Source of the DNA: Rodentibacter caecimuris
GTDB taxonomy: Bacteria > Pseudomonadota > Gammaproteobacteria > Enterobacterales > Pasteurellaceae
Length of the DNA: 64,000 bases
Direction: 5' to 3'
Assembly (NCBI RefSeq): GCF_001019715.1
Contig: NZ_BBXJ01000001.1
Coordinates: 1,860,001-1,924,000 of the forward strand
Shown in pieces: positions 17,224-33,032 of this stretch; positions within the stretch are counted from its first letter, which is position 1; every line of letters begins with the position of its first letter. The notes under the pieces were generated by a model, which was not told the origin of the DNA, ran no database searches, and saw only the letters and a program-made list of their open reading frames with translations. The position numbers and the translations under genes were made by a program.

Positions 17224-18447
17224 TTATCTTTCCTGGAGCGCCTGCTTCATCCTTGTAATCGGCTTAATCAGGTATTGAAACACCGTTTTTTCGCCGGTCT
17301 TAATATCCACGGTAGCGGTCATTCCCGGCGTAATATTTAAGCGGTTGCCGTTACGGTCGGTAATATGATTGCCATCGGTTTTCACTAAAATTCGATAGTA
17401 TGCCTGATCCGGATTCAAATTCAGCTCACTACGGCGACGTTCATCCTGCAATGTATCCGGACTGATTAATTCCACTTTACCTTCCAGCCCGCCGTAAATC
17501 GCATAATCATAGGCGCTTATTTTAACTAATGCCGGTTGTTCGGGGCGGATAAAGGCAACATCTTTCGGGCTAATATAGGCCTGCACTAACAAGGCTTCAT
17601 CCAAGGGCACGATCTCCAAAATATCCTGCCCTGCCTGCACAACACCACCTACCGTATTAATCCGGATATTTTTTACCACTCCGCGCAACGGCGCTTTAAT
17701 TTGCGAACGTTCTACCGGATCGGCACGCATTGCCATATTCTCACGTGCCTGAGCCAGCTCAGACTCGGTCTGCACCAATTCATTACTGGCATCCGCTACA
17801 TATTTATTATGGCGTTCGGAAAGCTGTTGGGCTAAATCGGAAGATTGGCGCATCATTCTCAGTAATTCTACTTCCGACATTACGCCTTTTTTCACCATAG
17901 GCTGAGTAATACTGATTTCACGGTCGAGTAATTCTTTACTCTGGCTTAATCCGCTAATCGCATCCTGCATAGCCTTATGCCGTGCGTTATAGGCCGCCGT
18001 TTCACGATCTTTGATTTCTTGCGGAATGTCTTGCGGAAATGTTAACGGCTCGCCCGAACTTTCGGCTTTCAAGCGGGCAACGATCCCCCTTAAACTCTGT
18101 ACTTTGGCTTCGCTCTCACGCAAAATCGCCGAACTTCGGGTATCATCAAGTAGTAAAAGAACCTGCCCTTTTTCAACCACATCCCCTTCTTTCACTTTCA
18201 TTTCCTGAATAATACCGGGATCTAAACTTTGTACGATCTGCTCACGGCTGCTTGGAATCACGCTACCTTGCCCACGTGTGACTTCCTCTAGCGGGCTAAA
18301 ATACGCCCAAATAACAAATGTCACCAGAAATAAAGCAAACAAGATAATTACCGAGAAAATACCTCGATGTTTTTCCGTTTGTAATGCGGCATTTAAATCA
18401 TTAATCAATGCTAAATCCGCTTTTTTTACTTCATCATTATTATGCAT
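17224..18447 (-). CDS. HlyD/LapC-type periplasmic adaptor of type I secretion
   Basis: A 407-residue membrane-fusion protein that bridges the ABC exporter and the outer-membrane channel. It has an N-terminal cytoplasmic part, one membrane helix (about residues 30-50), a biotinyl-lipoyl half-motif (VKEGDVVEKGQVLLLLDDT), a long periplasmic coiled coil (about 110-240), the second lipoyl half (PLRGVVKNIRINTVGGVVQAG) and the family ending YYRILVKT ... ITPGMTATVDIKTGEKTV. The start overlaps the exporter stop by 8 bases. It is the last gene of the leftward adhesin operon. Confidence 0.93.
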   Translation of the reverse strand: MHNNDEVKKADLALINDLNAALQTEKHRGIFSVIILFALFLVTFVIWAYFSPLEEVTRGQGSVIPSSREQIVQSLDPGIIQEMKVKEGDVVEKGQVLLLLDDTRSSAILRESEAKVQSLRGIVARLKAESSGEPLTFPQDIPQEIKDRETAAYNARHKAMQDAISGLSQSKELLDREISITQPMVKKGVMSEVELLRMMRQSSDLAQQLSERHNKYVADASNELVQTESELAQARENMAMRADPVERSQIKAPLRGVVKNIRINTVGGVVQAGQDILEIVPLDEALLVQAYISPKDVAFIRPEQPALVKISAYDYAIYGGLEGKVELISPDTLQDERRRSELNLNPDQAYYRILVKTDGNHITDRNGNRLNITPGMTATVDIKTGEKTVFQYLIKPITRMKQALQER

Positions 18448-20665
18448 TTTCTGTTCCCTGTTCAGTCGCTTGCCCGTTTACTTTTTCCGAGGAACCGTTT
18501 TCCTGTTCGGTATGTTCAGTACTTTGGTTCCGATTTAGCGTTTTTGGCTGTTCATTTTTCTGTAAATGTGCCAAGACGGCATCCCGTGGGCCATCGATCA
18601 CGACTTTTCCGTTTTCCATTACAATCACACGACTCACTAGTTTCAACACTTGCATGCGATGTGTTACAACAACCATTGTTCGATTACGCATCCAGTGTGC
18701 TAAGGCTTGTAATACCATTTCTTCCGATCCCTGATCCAAATCGCTGGTCGGTTCATCCAACAAAACAACTTGCGGATCTTTAATGGTTAAACGGGCTAAT
18801 GCCACCAACTGTTTTTGCCCGCCTGACAAGCCCTGACCGTTTTCACCCAGAGGCATATCCAATCCGCGTGGATGGCTGTTAACCAAGGTTTCTAAACCGA
18901 AACGGCGTAATGCGTTGACCAGTTCCTGATCACTGGAGAAATTATCCGTACGGGCAATATCCAGATTCTCACGCAATGTTCCTAAAAATAAACGGGGCGC
19001 CTGCCCCAACAATGAAATCTGATTACGCACATAATTCGGATCAATTTGGCGAAGATCCACATTATCCAACGTAACACCGCCGCTTTGCGGTTCATAAAGC
19101 CCCGATGCCAACTTTAACAAGGTACTCTTACCACTGCCGACCCGCCCTAAAATAGCCACTTTTTCACCAGGCTGAATCGTAATATTCACTTTATTCAGCG
19201 CATTGGCACTTTCTTTATTGTATTGGAAATTGACATTGTTAAAATTCAGTTTGCCTTGTACCTGTTTTAAGGTGATATATTTCCGTTCTGCATCACGCTC
19301 AATCGGGCGATTGATAATATCATCAACACCTTTTAAGGCTAAACGCGCCTGCTGAAAACGCGTAGCAAGACCGGCGATTTGTGACAATGGAGCCAAAGCC
19401 CGACCGGATAAAATCACTGAAGCGATTAATGCCCCCATAGTAATACGACTGGCTTCGTCCTGACTATGAATTAAATATGTCCCTAAAATCACCAAAAACA
19501 CTGTATTCAACTGTTGCAAAGCAACCGAGAAATTCACCACAAAATTACTTAAATCTTTCACTTTTATCTGCGATGCCGAGGTTTTTGCCGTGTACATATC
19601 CCACCGCTGTTGCGCCCAGTTAGTCGCATTATTGGCTTTTAAGGTTTCGATTCCGTCCAATGCTTCAACAATCAATCCCTGACGTTGTGATCCCTCCCGC
19701 ATGGATTCATTAATTTTTGCCGCTAATTTCGGTTGTATCGCAATGCCGACAATAATAACGGTCGGAATAATCACAAGTGGCACAAGCGCCAATTTCCCAC
19801 CGACTAAATAAATGACGAAAACAAATAACAGTAAGAACGGTAAATCGACCAATACTAACAAACTGGCACTAGTCATAAACTCACGCACCGATTCAAAATC
19901 CCGCAGGTTATTCGCATAGGATCCCGAGGAAGCCGGTTTATCAATCAGACGTAATGCCATCACTCGTCTAAATAATGCCGCACTAATAATCAAATCGGCT
20001 TTTTTACCGGCAATATCGGTTAAATGTCCCCTAATCATTTTTGCCATAAATTCAAAACTAATGGCAAGCACAACCCCAATACTCAATGCCCATAAGGTCT
20101 CATAGGTTTTATTCGGAATAACCCGATCATACACATTCATCACGTATAACGAACTAACCAACGCCAAAAAGTTAATAATAAAAGTCGCCAACACAACTTG
20201 ACCATAATAGGCTTTAAAACGCCAAATTACTTTCCAGAACCAGGCTTTCGGCATATGGTATTCCGGCAGTTCGGAACGAATATCGGACACGACTTTAGGC
20301 TTTACAAACCAGCAATAACCTAAATAAAGTCGGCTTAATTCCTCGTAACTCAACACTTTTTCCACTGCATCGGATTGACGCACGGTAAACTCACGCATTC
20401 TGCCGCTACCGGCAATTTTGGTAATCACCAGTGCTTCTTCATTATGCAAAATAGCCATCACCGGTACGGCAAGGCTTGGTATATCTTCCAGTTTGCGTTC
20501 GGAAACTCGGTTATCAAACCCGTAAGTTCTTAACACTTCGCTTAATGAAGCGAAATTAATGTTTAAATCCCGATCCCGTACAACCTGTGCTGTTAAGGCT
20601 TCCTGCGCAACGGGATTACCATGCAATTGCGTGACCAATGCCAAATGTTCAATAATAGATTTCAT
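18440..20665 (-). CDS. LapB-type type I secretion ABC exporter
   Basis: A 741-residue permease/ATPase. The first 125 residues form a C39-peptidase-like domain with no catalytic cysteine, as in LapB/HlyB exporters that do not cleave their cargo. Six membrane helices follow (about 150-430). The ATPase domain has Walker A GRVGSGKST (about 506-514), signature LSGGQKQ (about 610) and Walker B VVLLDEPTSDLD (about 630). An unusual polar, Glu/Asn/Gln-rich tail of about 40 residues ends the protein. It lies between the TolC-like and HlyD-like genes; the cargo is surely the adjacent giant adhesin. Confidence 0.95.
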   Translation of the reverse strand: MKSIIEHLALVTQLHGNPVAQEALTAQVVRDRDLNINFASLSEVLRTYGFDNRVSERKLEDIPSLAVPVMAILHNEEALVITKIAGSGRMREFTVRQSDAVEKVLSYEELSRLYLGYCWFVKPKVVSDIRSELPEYHMPKAWFWKVIWRFKAYYGQVVLATFIINFLALVSSLYVMNVYDRVIPNKTYETLWALSIGVVLAISFEFMAKMIRGHLTDIAGKKADLIISAALFRRVMALRLIDKPASSGSYANNLRDFESVREFMTSASLLVLVDLPFLLLFVFVIYLVGGKLALVPLVIIPTVIIVGIAIQPKLAAKINESMREGSQRQGLIVEALDGIETLKANNATNWAQQRWDMYTAKTSASQIKVKDLSNFVVNFSVALQQLNTVFLVILGTYLIHSQDEASRITMGALIASVILSGRALAPLSQIAGLATRFQQARLALKGVDDIINRPIERDAERKYITLKQVQGKLNFNNVNFQYNKESANALNKVNITIQPGEKVAILGRVGSGKSTLLKLASGLYEPQSGGVTLDNVDLRQIDPNYVRNQISLLGQAPRLFLGTLRENLDIARTDNFSSDQELVNALRRFGLETLVNSHPRGLDMPLGENGQGLSGGQKQLVALARLTIKDPQVVLLDEPTSDLDQGSEEMVLQALAHWMRNRTMVVVTHRMQVLKLVSRVIVMENGKVVIDGPRDAVLAHLQKNEQPKTLNRNQSTEHTEQENGSSEKVNGQATEQGTENA

Positions 20666-20856: not shown

Positions 20857-22119
20857 TCAAAATTTGACCGCACTTTTATTGCCCGCCCACTGGCTGATAC
20901 GTGCCTGTGAAGCGAGATATAGCAACGCCGCATCCCTGAAATCATTGCGTGCCGTCACTTCTGTGATTTGTACGCTGGTTAAATCTTGGTAAGAATCTAA
21001 TAAATTAATCAGGCTTCGCGCCGCCACTTCAAACTGTAATTCATTATCTTTCACGACATTACGTTGCAGACCAATTTGCTTCCTCGTTACGGTCATCAAC
21101 TGCTGGTTGCGCAACATATCCGCTTCGGAAGTTAATGCGCGTTCCTGTATGTTCAATTCAATTTCACGTAACTTGGCCTCTGCCGCTTTTTGGGAATAGT
21201 AACTTTGTTGTTCGCTATATTTTGCCGCCGGATTATAAATATCCCACGACATATTAATATACACTTCATGATTATGACGGCTTGCCGTTCCCTCTAGATT
21301 TATTGCCGGTAATTGTCTGGCTTTCGCCGCTTTCACCGCGGCTTTGGCACTTGCCGATTCTTCTTGTTGGGCGAGGTAAGTTGGATTTTGTTCAAGTGCC
21401 GGATTATGGAAACGATTAATAAATGCCGATACATTTATTTTCTCAAAAGGATCGACTAAATCCTTTTCGGTTAATCTCCCTTTGGTATAACGTCTTAACT
21501 GATTTAAGGCGGAATGCATGATACGTTGCTGAATTAAAATACTCGACTCAACTTGATTTTTACGCGACAGTGCCTCATTAACTTCAAAAGCACGTCCTTC
21601 ATCATAACCGGCAATAACCGTTAAATCCTTCAGAATTTTATTATGCCGTCGCAGACTTTCCTGATAGACGGCAATCATATCTTTTGCACGCAATGCGGTT
21701 AAATATAACTGACCGATTTGTTGCCCCATCACTTCTCTGGTTTCGGTTAATTTATGCTGATAATAACCTTCTCTGTGTTTATCCCGTTCAATTTCGGCTT
21801 CAATACCGCCCCAGGCATATAAATTTAAACGGGCATTCGCTCCCGGACCGGAACGGCGGTTACTGGTATCACGATGGTATTGGCTTGCCACCGAGGTATT
21901 CGTAACCGACACTATCGGCAAATGCCCCGCCTCGGAAACCTTAGTCTGACTTTTTGCCATTTCAATATTTGCTTTCGCCTCATCCAAAGTCGGATCCGCC
22001 ACAAAAGCGTGTTGAAGAATTTCATTTAAGGTTGTCTTCGCCAATAATGCGGATGGAAAAAGCATGAGCGAACCGGCAAAAACAACCGATAACCGCTGCT
22101 TAAATAAAAAATTTTTCAT
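20857..22119 (-). CDS. TolC-family outer membrane channel of type I secretion
   Basis: A 420-residue outer-membrane efflux protein of the TolC/AggA/LapE type. A signal peptide (about residues 1-27, ending LLAKT) precedes two repeated helical halves with the pattern LNEILQHAFVADPTLDEAKA and NVVKDNELQFEVAARSLINLLDSYQDLTS. It provides the outer-membrane pore for the adhesin. The last codons (SAVKF) are made by an uptake signal at 20867. About 190 bases, with no gene, separate it from the ABC exporter downstream. Confidence 0.93.
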   Translation of the reverse strand: MKNFLFKQRLSVVFAGSLMLFPSALLAKTTLNEILQHAFVADPTLDEAKANIEMAKSQTKVSEAGHLPIVSVTNTSVASQYHRDTSNRRSGPGANARLNLYAWGGIEAEIERDKHREGYYQHKLTETREVMGQQIGQLYLTALRAKDMIAVYQESLRRHNKILKDLTVIAGYDEGRAFEVNEALSRKNQVESSILIQQRIMHSALNQLRRYTKGRLTEKDLVDPFEKINVSAFINRFHNPALEQNPTYLAQQEESASAKAAVKAAKARQLPAINLEGTASRHNHEVYINMSWDIYNPAAKYSEQQSYYSQKAAEAKLREIELNIQERALTSEADMLRNQQLMTVTRKQIGLQRNVVKDNELQFEVAARSLINLLDSYQDLTSVQITEVTARNDFRDAALLYLASQARISQWAGNKSAVKF

Positions 22120-22325: not shown

Positions 22326-25300
22326 TTAAATAATGCTTACACCTTGTTGGATATAAACTTCTTCATTATTTACTTGACCTGTTGCTCCATAGTATGTGTA
22401 CTTATCATACACAACACCATCTTTTACAATGTCTGTACCGGTTTTTTGCCATACATTCCAATTATTTTGTAATGCACCACCGCTATCTTTAAACTCAATA
22501 CCGTTGGTACCATTCTTAGCTTGGTTATCTGAACCGTTACCGCCATTGTTACCAAAGTCCACTGTATCGCCAACATCACCTTTGATATAAAGCTGGGTAA
22601 TATTATCTCCTAAGCGTTGCAAGTCAGCTAAGGTTAAAGTGACCTTCTGGTTACCCGTACCACCAGTAATAGCACGCATATCAATGGTATCAAAGTTTAG
22701 TACTTGATTCATATCCAATTTCAAATCTGTACCGTGTAAGAAGATAGTATCATTACCTTCCCCACCGTCAATTGCACCATTACCCGTATTCACTCGGGAA
22801 CCAGTAATTGTTAAAGAGTCATTTCCTGAACCCATGTTGATATGGACATTATCCTCGGCGGACTTAAGAATTGAACCAACCGTCATCACATCATCGCCAC
22901 CAGAGAAATTGAATGTACCTCCTTTCAGAGTATCTTTGATATTAACAGTATCATTCCCATTACCAAACGAGAAGGTACCGTCAGTATCAACGTCTTTACC
23001 TACTTCGATAAAGTTGTCCCCTTCTCCTAGGTTAAAGGTTTGTTTTTGTCCAGCAATGGTACTAATGCTACCTTTCACGGAAATTACATCGTCACCCGAA
23101 CCGGCAGTAAAATCAATTTTCTTAACCAGATCAGTTCCGCCTGCTGCACCATAGCCAACACGTAACTCATTATTGCCTTCACCTAAATCAACCGTTTTAT
23201 TTCCGTCGAAGGTGCCATCAATTTGAATACGATCATTACCTGCACCACTGAAGAACTTGATTTCTGTAGCATTAGCCGTATTTCCACCAACATACAGAAT
23301 ATTGGTATCTCCAGCTTTATCTTCAGCTTGTCCCAGATCAATGGTGTAGTTACCTACAAGTAATCCACCAGCAATCGCAACACGGTCATTACCTGCACCC
23401 ATGGCAATTTTTTGACCATACATGGATTGTGCTGTACCACGGAATTGAACGCTATCATCACCGGCTCCCGCATCAAAGCCACCAAATGTACCCGATCCAG
23501 TAGCTCCAAAAGTACCATTATAAACACCCATATTACCAAAGTGGTTAAAGTCCAAACCAAAGATAACCGTATCATTACCATTAGTCGTTACAAACCCACC
23601 ATTACTTGCATTTGTTAATGGCTGTTTTGGTATTGTTACTGCAGCATCATCCATACTACCATTACCATAAGTAATAGGAGCACCAATAGTCGAACCTGCA
23701 GGTCTTGGATCTGGTCCTTGTTGTAAATTCATTTCTGCCGTTAGATTACGTAATACACTGACTTTTGTTTCAGACACATTACCTGCTGCATCAATAATAC
23801 GAAGTTCAAGCGCACCAGATACTTTACGGTTAAAGTTGTTGAGCGTTAAATGATATTTACCCTCACCATCTGCAGTGACCGGTGCAGACCAATTTGTTTT
23901 TCCTGTGCTTGTGGCATAACGATATTCAATTGTCGCACCAACTTCAGATAACCCAACTGGAGCAAAGATAACCTCACCTGTTGCAATGTCAAATTTTTCA
24001 ACAGACATTTGCTCAACTAAAGTATCAAGTCGGAAATCAAATTTACCTTTATCCCCAGTTGAAAGTGCATCACCATTTTTATCTTCCACCACAACTTCAT
24101 AACGATAATTTTGGCTGTAAGTTTCGCTCAATACATTATTGCCTTTCGGTGTCACCGTATAAGTTAATCCGTCAGTAGAGGCGAGCATATCGGCAGTAAC
24201 ATCCGTTTTACCATGTTCAGTATATGGATTATTCACATCTGAACTTTCAGATAATGTATAGCGATATACTTTAACTGTTTGACCAGCTGTCGGCGCTTTA
24301 TCTAGTGTAAATTCTAATACCGCATCTTTATCATTAGTCAACCCGTTTGCAAGGCTAGTAGCCGTTTGTGGGTTTGTAGCTTTAGCAACATCACCGACAT
24401 ATTTCGGGTTATTCTGGGTATAGTAATCGCTATATTGATAAGTTCCGTCTTCAAGCGGTTCATCATTTAAGTTATCAACTAACTTAATTGCTGTTACCTG
24501 CGGTGTTGATGCGGTGTAATCAATATCTTCTACACTGGTATTATTTGCATCTTTACCGACTGCTTTCACCTCATACTCTTTGGTCGCAGCATAACCGGTG
24601 AGTTCGTTAGCGCCAATATTAACGCTCCAACTACCATCTGCTGCAGGAGTCACGGTTTTTGTTACAATAACTGCGCCACTTTTTTCCCCTATGGTTACAG
24701 TAATGTCACCACTAATATCTTTGCTTGTACCACGAATTAAGAATCCGCCTGCCGCTTCTGCCGGGCTTATCTGAGCATATACATCCCCAGCTGCCGTACC
24801 ATCGTCTTTAACACTTGCAGATTGACTATCTCCGGCAATCTCAGTAATGTCAATTTCCAGTTTAGCCGCATCTATTGAAGTATCATTAACCGTTATTTCA
24901 TTACCTTCAACATTGCCCACTTTCACCTTACCGGTTTCCGCGCCTTCCGTTGAATTATCCTCTTTCGCCGTATGCTCTACTTTTAACTCCGTTACGCCTG
25001 CCGGTACGTTATAAGTACCGTCTGCATTTGGGGCTAAGACTTTTTCTGTATTATCCGTCGGATCCGTATATTTCACGACCGGAGCTTCGAAATCCTCTGC
25101 TGAGACCGGTTTGTTACCTGTACCGACAATTGTGATTGGCAGGTTATCTACGCCATTGTTGTTATCCAACTTAATTGTTGTTGTCACTTTGTTGGCACCT
25201 GTTTCATCAATTGTTGGCGGCTCACTCACTACGCCATCCGGCTTACCATCCCCGTCTTTATCTTCTATGATCGGTTTTGCATTTTTCGCATCCGTATCTG

Positions 25301-28300
25301 TTGTTAACGGTTCACCGGCTTTATCCGTTTTACCGCTTTCTTTACCCGTTGCGTTAACTTGTCCACCATCTTTCACTGCATCCGGTGCAATAGTTACTTT
25401 ACCTGTTGCCGGATCAACTGTTACACCTGCCGGTAGCTGACCTTCCGGTGTCCAAGTACCGTCATCGCCTTTTTCCACAGTAACCGTTTGTTTTTCACCT
25501 TTCTCATTAGGGAACGTTACAAACACCAGGTCATTACTCGGATTCGGAGTAACAATCGCCCCACCTTGGTTAGCCGGATCTTTTGCTAAAGTCGGTGCTT
25601 TTGCTTCATCCGGTAATGGTGTTGTTGAAGTATCATTAACCGTTACTTCATTACCTTCAACATTGCCCACTTTCACCTTACCGGTTTCCGCGCCTTCCGT
25701 TGAATTATCCGCTTTCGCCGTATGCTCTACTTTTAACTCCGTTACGCCTGCCGGTACGTTATAAGTACCGTCTGCATTTGGGGCTAAGACTTTTTCTGTA
25801 TTATCCGTCGGATCCGTATATTTCACGACCGGAGCTTCGAAATCCTCTGCTGAAACCGGTTTACCACCTGTACCGACAATTGTGATTGGCAGGTTATCTA
25901 CACCATTGTTGTTATCCAACTTAATTGTTGTTGTCACTTTGTTGTTATTGCCTGTTTCATCAATTGCTGCCGGCGAACTCACTACGCCATCCGGTGTACC
26001 ATCTCCGTCTTTATCTTCTGTGATCGGTTTTGCATTTTTCGCATCCGCATCTGTTGTTAACGGTTCACCGGCTTTATCCGTTTTACCGCTTTCTTTACCC
26101 GTTGCGTTAACTTGTCCACCATCTTTCACTGCATCCGGTGTAATCGTTACTTTACCTGTTGCCGGATCAAGTGTTACACGTTCCGGTAGCTGACCTTCCG
26201 GTGTCCAAGTGCCGTCATCGCCTTTTTTCACCGTAACAGTTTGTTCTTCACCTTTCTCATTAGGGAAGGTTACAACAACCTGGTCATTACTCGGATCCGG
26301 AGTAACAATCGCCCCACCTTGGTTAGCCGGATCTTTTGCTAAAGTCGGTGCTTTTGCTTCATCCGGTAATGGTGTTGTTGAAGTATCATTAACCGTTACT
26401 TCATTACCTTCAACATTGCCCACTTTCACCTTACCGGTTTCCGCGCCTTCCGTTGAATTATCCGCTTTCGCCGTATGCTCTACTTTTAACTCCGTTACGC
26501 CTGCCGGTACGTTATAAGTACCGTCTGCATTTGGGGCTAAGACTTTTTCGGTATTATCCGTCGGATCCGTATATTTCACGACCGGAGCTTCGAAATCCTC
26601 TGCTGAAACCGGTTTGCCACCTGTACCGACAATTGTGATTGGCAGGTTATCTACACCATTGTTGTTATCCAACTTAATTGTTGTTGTCACTTTGTTGTTA
26701 TTGCCTGTTTCATCAATTGCTGCCGGCGAACTCACTATGCCATCCGGTGTACCATCTCCGTCTTTATCTTCTGTGATCGGTTTTGCATTTTTCGCATCCG
26801 TATCTGTTGTTAACGGTTCACCGGCTTTATCCGTTTTACCGCTTTCTTTACCCGTTGCGTTAACTTGTCCACCATCTTTCACTGCATCCGGTGTAATCGT
26901 TACTTTACCTGTTGCCGGATCAAGTGTTACACGTTCCGGTAGCTGACCTTCCGGTGTCCAAGTGCCGTCATCGCCTTTTTTCACCGTAACAGTTTGTTCT
27001 TCACCTTTCTCATTATGGAAGGTTACAACAACCTGGTCATTACTCGGATCCGGAGTAACAATCGCCCCACCTTGGTTAGCCGGATCTTTTGCTAAAGTCG
27101 GTGCTTTTGCTTCATCCGGTAATGGTGTTGTTGAAGTATCATTAACCGTTACTTCATTACCTTCAACATTGCCCACTTTCACCTTACCGGTTTCCGCGCC
27201 TTCCGTTGAATTATCCGCTTTCGCCGTATGCTCTACTTTTAACTCCGTTACGCCTGCCGGTACGTTATAAGTACCGTCTGCATTTGGGGCTAAGACTTTT
27301 TCAGTATTATCCGTCGGATCCGTATATTTCACGACCGGAGCTTCGAAATCCTCTGCTGAAACCGGTTTACCACCTGTACCGACAATTGTGATTGGCAGGT
27401 TATCTACGCCATTGTTGTTATCCAACTTAATTGTTGTCGTCACCTTGTTGTTATTGCCTGTTTCATCAATTGCTGCCGGTGAACTCACTATGCCATCTGG
27501 TGTACCATCTCCGTCTTTATCTTCTGTGATCGGTTTTGCATTTTTTGGATCCGAGCCTGCATTTACCGGATCTGCATCAGCCCGATTATCGAGATTATCA
27601 CGACCTAATGCATTAACTTCTCCACCATCTTTTAATTTATCCGCAGGAATTTTAACGATGCCAGAATCCTTATCAACTGTCACGTTGTTGTCACCACTAT
27701 CAAAGAATAAGATCCACTCACCATTTTCTTTCTTTATAGCAACAGTTTGGTCTTTATCATTTTCATCTTTGAACTTAACTCCCATTATGACATTATCATC
27801 ACCCGCTTTTACTGTTACAGAACCGTCATTTTCAGCCGTGATAACAGGTTTATCCGCCGTTGTATTCGGATTATTGCCCGCCGTTGCTGCATCAGCATCC
27901 GCCGCATTACCTTTATCATCCGTACCGATTGCCGTTACTTCAGAACCGTCTTTCACTTTATTCTCAGGAATGGTGAATGTACCATCGTTTTTCGGCGTAA
28001 CGTCCGGATTGTCTGAGGTCCAGTTACCGTCAGCGCCTTTAGTTAAGGTTGCGGTTTTTTCCGCACCGTCTTCGTCGGTATATTTCACCACAACTTTAGT
28101 ATTGTCTTCGCCCGGTTTCACACTAACCGAACCATCGGTTTCCGGGGTTAAGGTCGGTTTATCCGCCGTTGTATCCGGATTATTGCCCGCCGTTGCATCA
28201 GCATCCGCCGCATTACCTTTATCATCCGTACCGATTGCCGTTACTTCAGAACCGTCTTTCACTTTATTCTCAGGAATGGTAAATGTGCCATCATTTTTCG

Positions 28301-29915
28301 GCATGACGTCCGGATTATCTGATGTCCAGTTACCGTCAGCGTCTTTAGTTAACGTTGCGGTTTTTTCCGTACCGTCTTCGTCGGTATATTTCACCACAAC
28401 TTTAGTATTGTCTTCGCCCGGTTTCACGCTAACTGAACCGTCGGTTTCAGGGGTTAAGGTCGGTTTATCCGCCGTTGTATCCGGATTATTGCCCGCCGTT
28501 GTTGCATCAGCATCCGCCGTATTACCTTTATCATCCGTACCGATTGCCGTTACTTCAGAGCCGTCTTTCACTTTATCTGCCGGAATGGTAAATGTGCCAT
28601 CATTTTTCGGCGTGACGTCCGGATTGTCTGATGTCCAGTTACCGTCAGCGTCTTTAGTTAACGTTGCGGTTTTTTCCGTACCGTCTTCGTCGGTATATTT
28701 CACCACGACTTTAGTATTGTCTTCGCCCGGTTTCACGCTAACTGAACCGTCGGTTTCCGGGGTTAAGGTCGGTTTATCCGCCGTTGTATCCGGATTATTG
28801 CCCGCCGTTGTTGCATCAGCATCCGCCGCATTCCCTTTATCATCCGTACCGATTGCCGTTACTTCAGAGCCGTCTTTCACTTTATCTGCCGGAATGGTAA
28901 ATGTGCCATCATTTTTCGGCGTGACGTCCGGATTGTCTGATGTCCAGTTACCGTCAGCGTCTTTAATTAACGTTGCGGTTTTTTCCGTACCGTCTTCGTC
29001 GGTATATTTCACCACGACTTTAGTATTGTCTTCGCCCGGTTTCACGCTAACTGAACCGTCGGTTTCCGGGGTTAAGGTCGGTTTATCCGCCGTTGTATCC
29101 GGATTATTGCCCGCCGTTGTTGCATCAGCATCCGCCGCATTCCCTTTATCATCCGTACCGATTGCTGTTACTTTAGAACCGTCTTTTACTTTATCTGCTG
29201 GAATAGTGAATGAGCCGTCACCTTTTGGTGCTACGTCCGGATTGTCTGATGTCCAGTTGCCATTTGCATCTTTCGTCAAGGTTGCTGTTTTTTCATTGCC
29301 GTTTTCATCAGTATATTTCACCACAACTTTCGTGTTGTCTGCGCCAGGTTTTACGGTTACCGAACCATCAGTTTTAGCATCTAACGTTGGTTTATCTGCT
29401 GTATTGTCGGTATTCTCATTACCGCCGCCACTACTTCCGCCATTGCTTGCCGCAATCGCAATACCTGCTGCCAATGGAACTAACGCTAATAACCACCACG
29501 GGTTAAACGCCCAGAAGGCACTCGCTAGATCTTCACCTCCTAACGCTTGTGGTGCAGCCACTTCTTCTGCTAACATACTCACCGCATCCGATTTTAAGCC
29601 GGATTCCGGTACATAGGCATAAATGCCGCCATTTTCATGTTGACCAACAATTAAGTTGCTTACTTCTTCTGAATTTTCATCACCGTAGTAACCTTTAATC
29701 ACTACGTCTGCGCTCATATCGCCGTCTTCCAAAAAGAGTTTTAAATCCTTTCCTTCACGTTTAGCGATGATATTTTGTGGACCAAGACCGGTTTGGTTGT
29801 CAATTAATTGGTAATTTGATTTATCTCTTGCTTCAATAACCAACATTTCACCTTGAGTAATTTGGTGGCTGGCTATCACTTTTTTAGCACTTAATACTTT
29901 TAATGTGGTTGACAT
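22326..29915 (-). CDS. Giant BapA-type repeat adhesin, type I secretion substrate
   Basis: A 2529-residue surface protein. Residues 1-130 form a BapA-prefix-like domain, followed by a hydrophobic Trp/Ala segment (WWLLALVPLAAGIAIAAS, 140-157) and a Gly/Ser linker. Residues 173 to about 690 hold five close copies of a 103-residue repeat (DKPTLTPETDGSVSVKPGED...), then a divergent sixth. Residues about 790-1675 hold three full copies and one partial copy of a 251-residue repeat. Ig-like segments follow. Residues 2145-2390 carry RTX-like GxGNDxxxx motifs. The C-terminus is a type I secretion signal region ending GQVNNEEVYIQQGVSII. Likely roles are adhesion and biofilm. The ATG follows AAGGAG. Confidence 0.93.
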   Translation of the reverse strand: MSTTLKVLSAKKVIASHQITQGEMLVIEARDKSNYQLIDNQTGLGPQNIIAKREGKDLKLFLEDGDMSADVVIKGYYGDENSEEVSNLIVGQHENGGIYAYVPESGLKSDAVSMLAEEVAAPQALGGEDLASAFWAFNPWWLLALVPLAAGIAIAASNGGSSGGGNENTDNTADKPTLDAKTDGSVTVKPGADNTKVVVKYTDENGNEKTATLTKDANGNWTSDNPDVAPKGDGSFTIPADKVKDGSKVTAIGTDDKGNAADADATTAGNNPDTTADKPTLTPETDGSVSVKPGEDNTKVVVKYTDEDGTEKTATLIKDADGNWTSDNPDVTPKNDGTFTIPADKVKDGSEVTAIGTDDKGNAADADATTAGNNPDTTADKPTLTPETDGSVSVKPGEDNTKVVVKYTDEDGTEKTATLTKDADGNWTSDNPDVTPKNDGTFTIPADKVKDGSEVTAIGTDDKGNTADADATTAGNNPDTTADKPTLTPETDGSVSVKPGEDNTKVVVKYTDEDGTEKTATLTKDADGNWTSDNPDVMPKNDGTFTIPENKVKDGSEVTAIGTDDKGNAADADATAGNNPDTTADKPTLTPETDGSVSVKPGEDNTKVVVKYTDEDGAEKTATLTKGADGNWTSDNPDVTPKNDGTFTIPENKVKDGSEVTAIGTDDKGNAADADAATAGNNPNTTADKPVITAENDGSVTVKAGDDNVIMGVKFKDENDKDQTVAIKKENGEWILFFDSGDNNVTVDKDSGIVKIPADKLKDGGEVNALGRDNLDNRADADPVNAGSDPKNAKPITEDKDGDGTPDGIVSSPAAIDETGNNNKVTTTIKLDNNNGVDNLPITIVGTGGKPVSAEDFEAPVVKYTDPTDNTEKVLAPNADGTYNVPAGVTELKVEHTAKADNSTEGAETGKVKVGNVEGNEVTVNDTSTTPLPDEAKAPTLAKDPANQGGAIVTPDPSNDQVVVTFHNEKGEEQTVTVKKGDDGTWTPEGQLPERVTLDPATGKVTITPDAVKDGGQVNATGKESGKTDKAGEPLTTDTDAKNAKPITEDKDGDGTPDGIVSSPAAIDETGNNNKVTTTIKLDNNNGVDNLPITIVGTGGKPVSAEDFEAPVVKYTDPTDNTEKVLAPNADGTYNVPAGVTELKVEHTAKADNSTEGAETGKVKVGNVEGNEVTVNDTSTTPLPDEAKAPTLAKDPANQGGAIVTPDPSNDQVVVTFPNEKGEEQTVTVKKGDDGTWTPEGQLPERVTLDPATGKVTITPDAVKDGGQVNATGKESGKTDKAGEPLTTDADAKNAKPITEDKDGDGTPDGVVSSPAAIDETGNNNKVTTTIKLDNNNGVDNLPITIVGTGGKPVSAEDFEAPVVKYTDPTDNTEKVLAPNADGTYNVPAGVTELKVEHTAKADNSTEGAETGKVKVGNVEGNEVTVNDTSTTPLPDEAKAPTLAKDPANQGGAIVTPNPSNDLVFVTFPNEKGEKQTVTVEKGDDGTWTPEGQLPAGVTVDPATGKVTIAPDAVKDGGQVNATGKESGKTDKAGEPLTTDTDAKNAKPIIEDKDGDGKPDGVVSEPPTIDETGANKVTTTIKLDNNNGVDNLPITIVGTGNKPVSAEDFEAPVVKYTDPTDNTEKVLAPNADGTYNVPAGVTELKVEHTAKEDNSTEGAETGKVKVGNVEGNEITVNDTSIDAAKLEIDITEIAGDSQSASVKDDGTAAGDVYAQISPAEAAGGFLIRGTSKDISGDITVTIGEKSGAVIVTKTVTPAADGSWSVNIGANELTGYAATKEYEVKAVGKDANNTSVEDIDYTASTPQVTAIKLVDNLNDEPLEDGTYQYSDYYTQNNPKYVGDVAKATNPQTATSLANGLTNDKDAVLEFTLDKAPTAGQTVKVYRYTLSESSDVNNPYTEHGKTDVTADMLASTDGLTYTVTPKGNNVLSETYSQNYRYEVVVEDKNGDALSTGDKGKFDFRLDTLVEQMSVEKFDIATGEVIFAPVGLSEVGATIEYRYATSTGKTNWSAPVTADGEGKYHLTLNNFNRKVSGALELRIIDAAGNVSETKVSVLRNLTAEMNLQQGPDPRPAGSTIGAPITYGNGSMDDAAVTIPKQPLTNASNGGFVTTNGNDTVIFGLDFNHFGNMGVYNGTFGATGSGTFGGFDAGAGDDSVQFRGTAQSMYGQKIAMGAGNDRVAIAGGLLVGNYTIDLGQAEDKAGDTNILYVGGNTANATEIKFFSGAGNDRIQIDGTFDGNKTVDLGEGNNELRVGYGAAGGTDLVKKIDFTAGSGDDVISVKGSISTIAGQKQTFNLGEGDNFIEVGKDVDTDGTFSFGNGNDTVNIKDTLKGGTFNFSGGDDVMTVGSILKSAEDNVHINMGSGNDSLTITGSRVNTGNGAIDGGEGNDTIFLHGTDLKLDMNQVLNFDTIDMRAITGGTGNQKVTLTLADLQRLGDNITQLYIKGDVGDTVDFGNNGGNGSDNQAKNGTNGIEFKDSGGALQNNWNVWQKTGTDIVKDGVVYDKYTYYGATGQVNNEEVYIQQGVSII
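24890..27550 (-). repeat. Tandem 753-bp repeats inside the adhesin
   Basis: Landmarks recur at 753-base spacing. The CTTCTGTGAT landmark lies at 27521, 26768 and 26015, with a variant at 25262. The CGTTACTTCA landmark lies at 27147, 26394 and 25641, with a variant at 24891. Each unit encodes 251 residues and the units differ by only scattered bases. The fourth copy is one codon shorter (ETGANK for ETGNNNK) and truncated. Confidence 0.95.
27840..29400 (-). repeat. Tandem 306/309-bp repeats inside the adhesin
   Basis: The TCGGTTTC landmark lies at 29059, 28750, 28441 and 28135, giving spacings of 309, 309 and 306 bases. Each unit encodes 103 (or 102) residues. The copy next to the N-terminus is more diverged, and a further diverged copy follows at the C-terminal side. 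Confidence 0.95.
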
Positions 29916-29931
29916 AAATACTCCTTAATCA

Positions 29932-30804
29932 TTAGTTTCCATAAACTGCGATTTCTACACGGCGATTTGGTTGGTTGCACTGATTACGTTGTGCGCCTTT
30001 ATAGGCATCGCAATTGCTTACCACCAGTTCCGCTTTACCGTAACCCACCGCATTAATCGGCGCGGTTACACCTGCTTTTTGTAATGCTAATTTCACGGTA
30101 TTCGCCCGTTTTTGTGATAACGCTTGGTTATAGCTTGCCGAACCTATCGGGTCTGTATGACCGGAAACGGTTATTTTGCTAATTGATGGCATGGATTTGA
30201 CTTTCTCGGCAAATTCTTCAATTTTTTCTTTGCCGTTCGGCAAAATGTCGTTGTAATTGGATTTGTTAAAATCGAATAATGCGCCCGCTTCCAATGACTC
30301 CACCGCTAATATGCCTGCACCGCAATTCCCTGCGGCAGGAACGCGTGAAAGGGTTTGATTTTCTTTAGCTAATTGAGAAACTTCCTGTTCTCCGACCGCA
30401 CCTTCCACTTGGTTAAACACGAGTTTACCGTTTTGTTGACTTACTTTGATATACATTGTTTGGTTGACCGGTAGTGTATAGTTCACCCCCTGCGTACGAT
30501 TGCCAAATTTGCCGTTACTGCTATAAGAGGCACTGAATAAATGTTTGTCCGCACAAACCACTACCGGTGTGTACGCATTTGGCAGCAATGAGGCTTGATA
30601 ATTGCCGTCAACATACACATTGACCGCCGGGCCTTGTACATCATCCTGACGATAAAATACAGCCAAAGATTGGTTTTCCTCCAACTGCTGAGCATTAATT
30701 TTGCTTTGTTCAAAATTACTCCACGTTTCTAGTGGCTGATTCACATCTCGTGCGCAGCCAGTCAATGCAGCTACCACGCCGAGACAAAGCAATGTTTTGT
30801 TCAT
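29932..30804 (-). CDS. OmpA-family lipoprotein linked to the adhesin
   Basis: A 290-residue lipoprotein: signal MNKTLLCLGVVAALTGC with lipobox cysteine 17-18. A variable periplasmic middle is followed by an OmpA-like peptidoglycan-binding domain in the last 120 residues (ALFDFNKSNYNDILP, VSGHTDPIGSASYNQALSQKRA, AVGYGKAELVVSNC, NRRVEIAVYG). It ends 16 bases before the adhesin start on the same strand, so it is almost surely co-expressed. It may tether the secretion complex or adhesin to the cell wall. That role is inferred from position. Confidence 0.9.
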   Translation of the reverse strand: MNKTLLCLGVVAALTGCARDVNQPLETWSNFEQSKINAQQLEENQSLAVFYRQDDVQGPAVNVYVDGNYQASLLPNAYTPVVVCADKHLFSASYSSNGKFGNRTQGVNYTLPVNQTMYIKVSQQNGKLVFNQVEGAVGEQEVSQLAKENQTLSRVPAAGNCGAGILAVESLEAGALFDFNKSNYNDILPNGKEKIEEFAEKVKSMPSISKITVSGHTDPIGSASYNQALSQKRANTVKLALQKAGVTAPINAVGYGKAELVVSNCDAYKGAQRNQCNQPNRRVEIAVYGN

Positions 30805-31004
30805 ACTTAACCTCTTTAATAGTTAATAAAATTGTTGAGATTCAATAAATAAAATTACTTTTCCTTCACACTACACAACTCCATAGCAGATGGGGCATCC
30901 AATCCAAACAACCGAGGAAAAATAATATTGTCGAAAACGCTCGGGCGATGTTGAAAAATCACGCCTAACGCCATCAACACCTGAATTTTTTGAAGAGACT
31001 AAAA

Positions 31005-31065
31005 TACAAAAAACTCAAGATTGAGGGTTCTTGATACAAGAACCCTCAATCTTGAGTTTTTTGTA
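31005..31065. repeat. Perfect 29-bp inverted repeat with 3-base loop
   Basis: Arm 31005-31033 and arm 31037-31065 are exact reverse complements, with loop ATA. The arms carry A6 at one end and T6 at the other, so it can act as a terminator on both strands. It would stop leftward transcripts that pass the 7-base repeat before they reach the OmpA-like gene. Confidence 0.9.
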
Positions 31066-31130
31066 AATAGAATTCCACCTAACCTTTTCCTGGCGGAAGG
31101 AGAAAGAAAAATTATGCTTTATGCTGTATG

Positions 31131-31207
31131 CTGTCTGCTGTCTGCTGTCTGCTGTCTGCTGTCTGCTGTCTGCTGTCTGCTGTCTGCTGTCTGCTGTCTG
31201 CTGTCTG
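31131..31207. repeat. Heptanucleotide simple repeat, eleven copies
   Basis: Eleven perfect copies of CTGTCTG, preceded by the imperfect unit CTGTATG. Such tracts slip during replication and drive phase variation in Pasteurellaceae. The tract begins about 330 bases upstream of the OmpA-like start. Rightward it lies in a short frame (ATG 31114) preceded by AAGGAG. Confidence 0.95.
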
Positions 31208-31658
31208 CTGTTCATCAGTGTATGTCCTGAATTTGAAATTGGAAGAATCGTGCGCCTACTTTACATATATTTTATTGTAAATGCCAATTTTTTTTAAATG
31301 TTATGGTTTTATTACAGAAACTTGGGCTTTTTAATCTTAAAAGTGTTAATGATAACCTTACTTTAAGCTGTTAGAATGCTCCCTATTGGCTACTGCACCT
31401 ATTGAAACCAAAAAAGCTAACCCATACTTATTAAATAACTTTCAACCGTACTTCCATAAAAAAATTCCCTTAGTTTTTTCGCTATAGAGGATTTTAATTC
31501 ATACATTAGCGTATATTTTTATAAACCAAAGTGCGGTCATTTTTAGCCTGATTATGAATAGCGGTAGTAAACGTACAAAATAATCTTTTGCGCCTCTGCT
31601 GCATAATACCGAGAAATTCAACTATTTTTCCCACCGCACTTTCTATTTATTTTATTGC

Positions 31659-33032
31659 TTAGGCAAATCTTGCTTTCGCTTCTGCAATGGCTTCTGCTAC
31701 TCGTAATGGAGAAACGCCGCCTTTTGCACAACGTTTATCCAAACAGGATTGCAGGGAAAGAATGTTGTACACATCATCTCCCACCATCTCGCTAAACTGA
31801 CGAAATTCCGGAATAGTTAAATCTTCCAAGCTTTTGCCTTTTTTAATCGCATACACCACCGTTTCCCCCACAATATGATGGGAATCACGGAAAGGTACAC
31901 CTTTAGCAACAAGATAATCAGCCAATTCAGTCGCATTTGAATAGCCTTTTAAGGCGGCTTCACGGGTACGTTCAACGTTCACTTTTAACTCATCCAATAC
32001 GAAAGTTGCCATGTCCAAACAATCTTGCCAAGTATCCAAGGCATCGAAAATGCCCTCCTTATCTTCTTGCATATCTTTGTTGTAGGCGAGCGGTAACCCC
32101 TTTAAAGTCATCAACATTCCGGTTAAAGCGCCCATTACACGACCTGCTTTTCCACGAATTAATTCGCAGGCATCCGGATTTTTCTTTTGTGGCATTAAAG
32201 ATGAACCTGAAGTTACACGATCCGATAATTCGACGAAATTTGCTTCTCCACTATTAAAAATAATCATATCTTCCGCAAAACGGGAAAGATGAGCCATACT
32301 CAGGGAGGCTGTAGAAAGTAATTCTACGATATGATCACGATCCGACACGCTGTCCAAACTATTACGGGTTGCAAAATTAAACCCTAAATCTTGAGCAAGT
32401 GCATCGCGATCCACTGCATAAGCCGTACCAGCCAATGCACCACTACCAAGCGGGCAAGTATTCATGCGTTTATAAGCATCGGTCAAACGGGTGTAATCTC
32501 GATCAAACATTTCTACATAAGCCATACACCAGTGGGCAAAAGTGATAGGTTGCGCACGTTGAAGATGGGTGTAACCCGGCATCACGGCTTCTTGGGTATT
32601 TTCAGCGGTTTGCACTAAATGGCGTTGTAAATTCCGAATCGAATCCTGTAATTCGATCACACGTTGTTTACACCACATTTTAATATCGAGTGCGACTTGA
32701 TCGTTACGACTACGTCCGGTATGCAATTTTTTTCCAAGATTACCGACTTTATCAATCAGTTTACTTTCCACCCAACTGTGAATATCCTCTGCTTCATCTT
32801 GTAAAATTGCTTGCGGATTCGACCGCACTTCGATCAATAATTCATTTAATGCCTGCTCTAACCGTTGTTGTTCATCCGTCGTTAAGACATTCACTTTTAC
32901 TAATGCTTTCGACCAACCGATTGATCCTTCGATATCCTGTTCGGCGAGACGATAATCAAAACGTAATGAATCATTAAAATCTTTAAAACGCTTATCTGCC
33001 GCTTGTGTAAAACGCCCACCCCAAAGTGCCAT
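31659..33032 (-). CDS. argH: Argininosuccinate lyase
   Basis: Splits argininosuccinate into arginine and fumarate, the last arginine-synthesis step. The 457 residues match the family. The fumarase/lyase signature [12 protein letters not shown] (about residues 276-287) is present, as are [22 protein letters not shown] at the start and [17 protein letters not shown]. The gene stands alone, with uptake signals on both sides and one inside (32822). The start follows AAAGAGGATATT. Confidence 0.97.

Follow-up and report, generated by a model that had tools for sequence, protein, structure and literature searches.

The heptanucleotide repeat that precedes an OmpA-like gene in Rodentibacter caecimuris is very likely the changeable component of a transcription attenuator that phase-varies an adhesin operon. 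The tract was found in the window, which is the whole stretch of 64,000 nucleotides that was analyzed. It lies within a leader open reading frame (ORF) that reads leftward through the repeats into a long hairpin. The tract is of the slippage type and probably phase-varies the leftward operon, and a leader-peptide attenuator is the likely device, rather than promoter spacing or a rightward gene.

The repeat tract and its leader

The tract consists of 11 perfect CTGTCTG copies at 31131-31207, as an earlier, sequence-only reading had reported. That reading placed it about 330 bases before the OmpA-like gene, and the measured distance to the start of this gene at 30804 is 327 nt. Tandem Repeats Finder extends the tract to 31122-31211 (12.9 copies, 98% matches, score 173). 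It reports four more rows for the window, one for a 309-bp array within the adhesin gene and three for weak arrays (scores 41-44). A search of the 2.72-Mb genome with a 3-copy CTGTCTG pattern gave nine overlapping matches, all of them within 31131-31207, and the reversed control gave none in the same genome. By this search it is the sole tract of its unit. Two features had escaped the sequence-only reading: the 29-bp inverted repeat at 31005-31065 and the leftward 66-codon ORF at 31015-31215. The parts of the leader region are as follows.

31659-33032, minus strand: argH, upstream of the leader on the same strand
31258..31298, minus strand: TTTAAA-18-TAAAAT and TTGGCA-18-TAAAGT, putative promoter(s) for the leader transcript (weak evidence)
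31225..31228, minus strand: Shine-Dalgarno-like AGGA, 9 nt from the leader ATG, also present in the related leaders L059 and L060
31015..31215, minus strand: leader ORF, 66 codons at 11 copies, with its ATG at 31213-31215 and its stop at 31015-31017 in the 3' arm of the hairpin
31122..31211, minus strand: repeat tract whose heptanucleotide unit reads CAGACAG on the leader strand; 12.9 periods, of which 31131-31207 holds the 11 perfect copies
31005..31065, minus strand: hairpin with a perfect 29-bp stem, a 3-nt loop and a U-run, predicted to be an intrinsic terminator (attenuator)

The anatomy of an attenuator is strongly marked in this region. The hairpin lies between the tract and the ompA-like gene and has T-runs at its perfect inverted repeat. 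The 251-nt leader folds with a z-score of -7.15 against 200 shuffles. None of the 15 Rfam matches (E up to 1) at 30700-31800 reaches the gathering score, and 12 of them are microRNA models, a type that long hairpins match. A consensus scan with a threshold found four promoter-like sites around the leader on both strands against a shuffle mean of 3.5, i.e. no excess.

The frame arithmetic is simple. Each slippage event shifts the frame past the tract because the unit is 7 nt long. When copy numbers from 3 to 19 are tabulated with all other bases unchanged, every third copy number produces a stop 51 nt into the 61-nt hairpin, and the leaders of the remaining ones end 46 or 53 nt short of it. At 11 copies, as sequenced, the leader is in the hairpin-entering phase. 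The window is thus predicted from its sequence to be ON at 11 copies and OFF in the other two phases.

The mechanism that we infer from this arrangement concerns the promoter position, translation of the leader, termination, read-through and the effect on adhesin level. Transcription would begin upstream of 31215 and proceed leftward, and ribosomes would initiate at the ATG at 31215 and translate the CAGACAG repeats. In the ON state, which should occur in one phase of three, translation would enter the hairpin and block formation of the terminator, so that the polymerase could continue into the ompA, adhesin and type I secretion genes. In the two OFF phases ribosomes would stop 46-53 nt short, the hairpin would form and transcription would end, apart from leakage.

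The operon behind the proposed attenuator

All genes of the operon are oriented leftward.

29932..30804, minus strand: OmpA-like gene, the first gene behind the putative attenuator, with a lipobox-like LTGC recognized by eye
22326..29915, minus strand: giant, repetitive, adhesin-like protein of 2529 aa with five 309-bp repeats at 27847-29374; its adhesin role is suggested by context
20857..22119, minus strand: TolC-type outer membrane protein (TIGR01844, 90 bits, under the cut-off of 225)
18440..20665, minus strand: type I secretion ABC permease/ATPase of the LssB type (TIGR03375, 890 bits, cut-off 693)
17224..18447, minus strand: HlyD-type periplasmic adaptor (TIGR01843, 332 bits, cut-off 209)

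The ABC permease, the HlyD adaptor and the TolC-type protein, the last with its score below the cut-off, adjoin a giant repetitive protein, as in a type I secretion adhesin operon. The giant protein itself matched no NCBIfam family. Its Pfam matches (FixH, RodZ_C and others) look like chance matches on repetitive sequence and were discarded. Its five 309-bp repeats match at 93%, and a change in their number could alter the length of the adhesin independently of the switch. An RTX surface protein with a type I system, PnxIIIA, has been described in Pasteurella pneumotropica (PMC3075217).

Comparison with known switches

The closest known design is that of the pil1 locus of Streptococcus gallolyticus. 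According to PMC3894217, the pil1 leader ORF contains GCAGA repeats, and an out-of-frame change in their number results in a longer leader, with a stop in or after the hairpin, and in read-through. Expression is fixed at a high level when the hairpin is lost and stays low when the leader lacks its start. For pil3, matching elements and variants are reported (Danne et al. 2014). The attenuator reading of the window is supported by the fact that mutants established the same design in pil1. The window contains a leader ORF, with a start and AGGA, that harbors a tandem repeat whose unit length is not a multiple of 3. It also has an intrinsic terminator predicted from sequence and folding between the leader and the first gene, and frame stops at +51, -46 and -53 relative to the hairpin.

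The two systems share short repeats of non-multiple-of-3 length in a leader ORF with a start and a ribosome site, a terminator hairpin before the first gene, a short phase that ends upstream of the hairpin, a long phase that ends in or past it, and a surface adhesin as the target. Leader L074 of genome G054 even has the pil1 unit, GCAGA. The bacteria belong to different phyla, however, and the units here are mostly CAGACAG, AGCAC, AAGACAG, AGCAAAC and GACTACA. The hairpins are long (the window's stem has 29 perfect base pairs), one genome, G001, has six such leaders, and the predicted targets are type I secreted and ESPR-type adhesins, whereas those of S. gallolyticus are sortase pili.

As in attenuation of the trp type, a ribosome on a leader ORF would decide whether the terminator forms (PMC3894217), but the input here is DNA slippage and not amino-acid supply. 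The AGCAC tracts inside coding genes (L143, L145 and L147) have the same pentamer and frame logic as some of the leaders; there the repeat is within the coding gene, whereas here a separate leader would act via a putative terminator. These three tracts, in G001 and G002, are at the coding starts of an FkbM-like methyltransferase and a mod-like gene, labels that were assigned by eye from translations, and look like ordinary in-ORF phase variation. Among the entries listed by searches of open-access literature, there was no report of the mechanism outside S. gallolyticus and no Gram-negative case.

Leaders in related genomes

The OmpA-like protein was searched in 140 Pasteurellaceae genomes. All 140 have a match with E of 1e-10 or better, mostly via the common OmpA domain, and 53 matches, the window included, exceed 140 bits; among these, the tandem pairs in G063 and G050 were taken as single stretches, with one gene of each analyzed. 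Fifteen loci, the window included, have at least 61% identity. A tract of at least 28 nt is present in 13 of the 15, as is a long hairpin. L071 has neither, and L067 has kept its hairpin with a decayed tract of only two to three repeats. L070 (G009, contig C14) has an ATG start codon and 20 TGTCAAC copies, but the 114 nt preceding ompA contain no strong hairpin; this locus may use another switch, perhaps involving Rho or translational coupling. Most OmpA matches below 61% identity have no tract and no hairpin. L090 (G112) has a long terminator-like hairpin without a tract at -161 to -104 before an ompA-like gene, perhaps a non-variable attenuator. A CAGACAG tract in G005 leads into the 5' arm of a AAACCCAAGG-type hairpin, at which point the contig ends; locus L078 of this genome is truncated at a contig end and is without an ompA match.

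In total, 18 leaders with both tract and hairpin were found in eight genomes (G000, G001, G002, G006, G007, G010, G054 and G131), the six of G001 being L064, L065, L066, L144, L202 and L231. Fourteen precede ompA-like genes, two of which (L086 and L102) are partial ompA matches, and four precede ESPR-type adhesin genes. All share one layout: start, repeat, a spacer of 21-65 nt and hairpin. Some of the relatives' leaders have no clear ribosome site, the start codon of L074 is 52 nt before the tract, and that of L102 is TTG.

The ESPR-linked leaders came from two sources. L144 and L146 were found via AGCAC sites. Five such sites in G001 and G002, among the matches listed, were examined: these two are attenuator leaders, and L143, L145 and L147 are the in-ORF tracts mentioned above. 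AGCAC sites in other genomes were left out except L069 (G007), which was included through its ompA gene. L202 and L231 were found among 80 further ESPR upstream stretches from 15 genomes of the genus, two of them shortened by contig ends; of the 90 ESPR matches, the remainder comprised L144 and L146, already analyzed, and eight that were left out. L231 was missed by the hairpin finder, its stem swallowing the U-run, and was found by eye; it stands as tract-only in the co-occurrence table below and is counted among the 18.

Other tracts near ESPR-type adhesin genes are of different kinds. L226 (G000:C1:2519608-2520668), in the window's own genome, and L243 (G006) have ATTT tetranucleotide tracts with no strong hairpin; that of L226 consists of 21 copies at about -234 to -150. 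These tracts are perhaps of the promoter type of phase variation. Tracts of 42 CACG copies (L195, G012) and 13 ACGC copies (L189, G013) are positioned 0.8-1 kb upstream of such genes.

Six repeat units are paired with hairpins: CAGACAG, AGCAAAC, AAGACAG, AGCAC, GCAGA and GACTACA. Their lengths are never multiples of three, and no stop occurs in them on the leader strand. A stop-free unit alone is weak evidence, as about 59-69% of random units are likewise stop-free. GACTACA and the TGTCAAC of L070 have stops on the rightward strand and none on the leader strand. In L065 and L066 the sequence preceding the AGCAC tract, ACATACACTGATGA, is identical to that preceding the CAGACAG tract of the window, so the repeat unit seems to have been replaced while the leader start was kept. 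In the 140 family genomes, four CAGACAG copies occur in five (reversed control, 0), and five AGCAC copies in at least 42 (reversed control, 2); five GCAGA copies are not enriched, with 2 of 140 against 3 for the reversed control.

Copy-number differences are known here from paralogs within one genome. Near-identical flanks enclose 45 and 62 AGCAC copies in G001 and 7, 9 and 9 AAGACAG copies in G054, and copies with the same hairpin in G002 have 23 CACAG units versus two to three.

Frames, co-occurrence and covariation

In 16 of the 18 leaders a single frame enters the hairpin by 15 nt or more and the other two end at its start or earlier, the criterion and the 15-nt limit having been set after the data were seen. 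The exceptions, L060 and L069, have two frames that enter the hairpin. With one representative per hairpin family, seven of seven leaders show the one-frame pattern against 2.83 expected from dinucleotide-shuffled spacers (P 0.0014). Under a stricter requirement, that the frame continue beyond the middle of the hairpin, the pattern is seen in 11 of the 14 ompA-linked leaders.

Tract and hairpin tend to occur together. In 133 upstream regions, 17 have both, nine the tract only, two the hairpin only and 105 neither (Fisher P 4e-13); the test related stop-free tracts to strong terminator-like hairpins, the limit on the hairpin score was set in knowledge of the data, and related loci were counted separately. 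L198 has a hairpin with a score of 49, positioned upstream of a short tract, which the slightly different finder of this test did not detect.

The seven AAACCCAAG-type hairpins vary in a manner that preserves the stem. Six of their 24 pairs are changed on both sides, and 99.4% of cells are paired. Pairing, the number of both-sides-changed cells and the covariation score all exceed 500 of 500 shuffles, whereas two of the five measures, both-sides-changed pairs (21/500) and pair types (111/500), are not clearly above the shuffles. Palindrome correction at the DNA level could be an alternative source of covarying hairpins. The pattern AAACTCAAG...CTTGAG is found in six of the 140 genomes; in five of these every match is a tract-and-hairpin leader, and the match in G132 is non-palindromic. 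The pattern AAACCCAAG...CTTGGG is found in three of the 15 genus genomes, always at such leaders, including L067 with its decayed tract. A further CTCAAG copy is found just past the U-run in L062, L065, L069, L144, L202 and L231; if it paired with the 3' arm in hairpins of the CTTGAG type, an alternative structure might result.

When the frame rule is applied to 19 leaders (the 18 and L067), with leader start codons chosen by the analyst, two are predicted to be ON (the window and L065), one is borderline (L060) and 16 are OFF. Ten of these 16 stop only 13-26 nt before the hairpin. According to PMC3894217, S. gallolyticus isolates are mostly low when their leader ends 28 nt or more ahead of the terminator, and an isolate with a leader ending immediately upstream of it is largely high. 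The OFF state of these ten leaders is therefore less sure. The OFF phases of the window, at 46 and 53 nt, exceed 28 nt and are unaffected by this doubt. Phases that stop at the hairpin edge, as in L060, L074, L144, L146 and L202, may be intermediates.

Alternative explanations

The sequence-only reading had likened the tract to the promoter repeats of the Haemophilus influenzae HMW adhesins. Its proposal that slippage modulates leftward adhesin transcription is probably right, but the HMW mechanism is not supported. Under that mechanism a larger number of 5' repeats would lower leftward transcription through promoter spacing or an effect on the mRNA, and the frame would be irrelevant. The heptameric unit, the adhesin target and the Pasteurellaceae host do resemble hmw1A, and hmw1A mRNA falls with more ATCTTTC copies, the active P2 transcript also carrying the repeat in its 5' UTR (PMC8262952). 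According to that paper, both the -10 box of P2 and the -35 box of P1 are overlapped by the hmw1A repeat, and expression drops as copy number increases. hmw1A and hmw2A share with the window a 7-bp repeat upstream of an adhesin gene, a bacterial family and a place of the repeat in the 5' UTR of one transcript, predicted in the case of the window. The unit on the leader strand differs from ATCTTTC, however, and the tract comes after the leader start codon, with the putative promoter(s), by consensus scan, further upstream, and is followed by the terminator-like hairpin, with stops that fit a switch at every third copy. The adhesin and secretion classes are different as well. Furthermore, a leader start and a terminator-like hairpin flank the tract in all 18 leaders, the placement of stops lets one of three frames enter the hairpin in 16 of them, and tracts of up to 62 copies persist. 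A length effect of the HMW kind is very unlikely.

A purely insulating role for the hairpin is also very unlikely. In that case it would be a common, bidirectional terminator, the operon would be transcribed from a promoter of its own downstream of the hairpin and upstream of ompA, and the tract would vary an unrelated short peptide. The hairpin does score as a terminator on both strands, and about 200 nt separate it from ompA, but the consensus scan detected no minus-strand promoter-like site at threshold in this interval, and the hairpin accompanies the tract before two classes of genes. As to a rightward frame-shifted ORF, which had been suggested from an ATG at 31114 with an upstream AAGGAG, both elements are indeed present on the plus strand and L060 also has an ATG directly before the tract. 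A rightward gene is nevertheless extremely unlikely: L059 and L064 have no such ATG, the GACTACA and TGTCAAC tracts contain stops when read on the strand opposite the leader, and a rightward transcript would be antisense to argH (31659-33032, minus strand).

Implications

Rodentibacter and its neighbors may possess a reusable phase-variable attenuator cassette, of an origin independent of the streptococcal one, although this broader picture is tentative and somewhat less probable than its contrary. In such a cassette the repeat unit and the hairpin would be freely replaced while the logic of start, tract and hairpin is kept, and it would precede type I secreted adhesins as well as autotransporter adhesins, up to six times per genome. 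Some leaders might have three levels, according to whether the stop falls well short of the hairpin, at its edge or within it, and the result would be a combinatorial surface code. If the attenuator reading is true, translation-coupled phase-variable attenuation extends to Gram-negative bacteria, which points to more than one evolutionary origin of the design and to its reuse across adhesin classes. The annotation of intergenic repeats would change, as some supposed promoter repeats may be positioned in leader ORFs before terminators, and for such tracts the ON or OFF state would be predictable from sequence.
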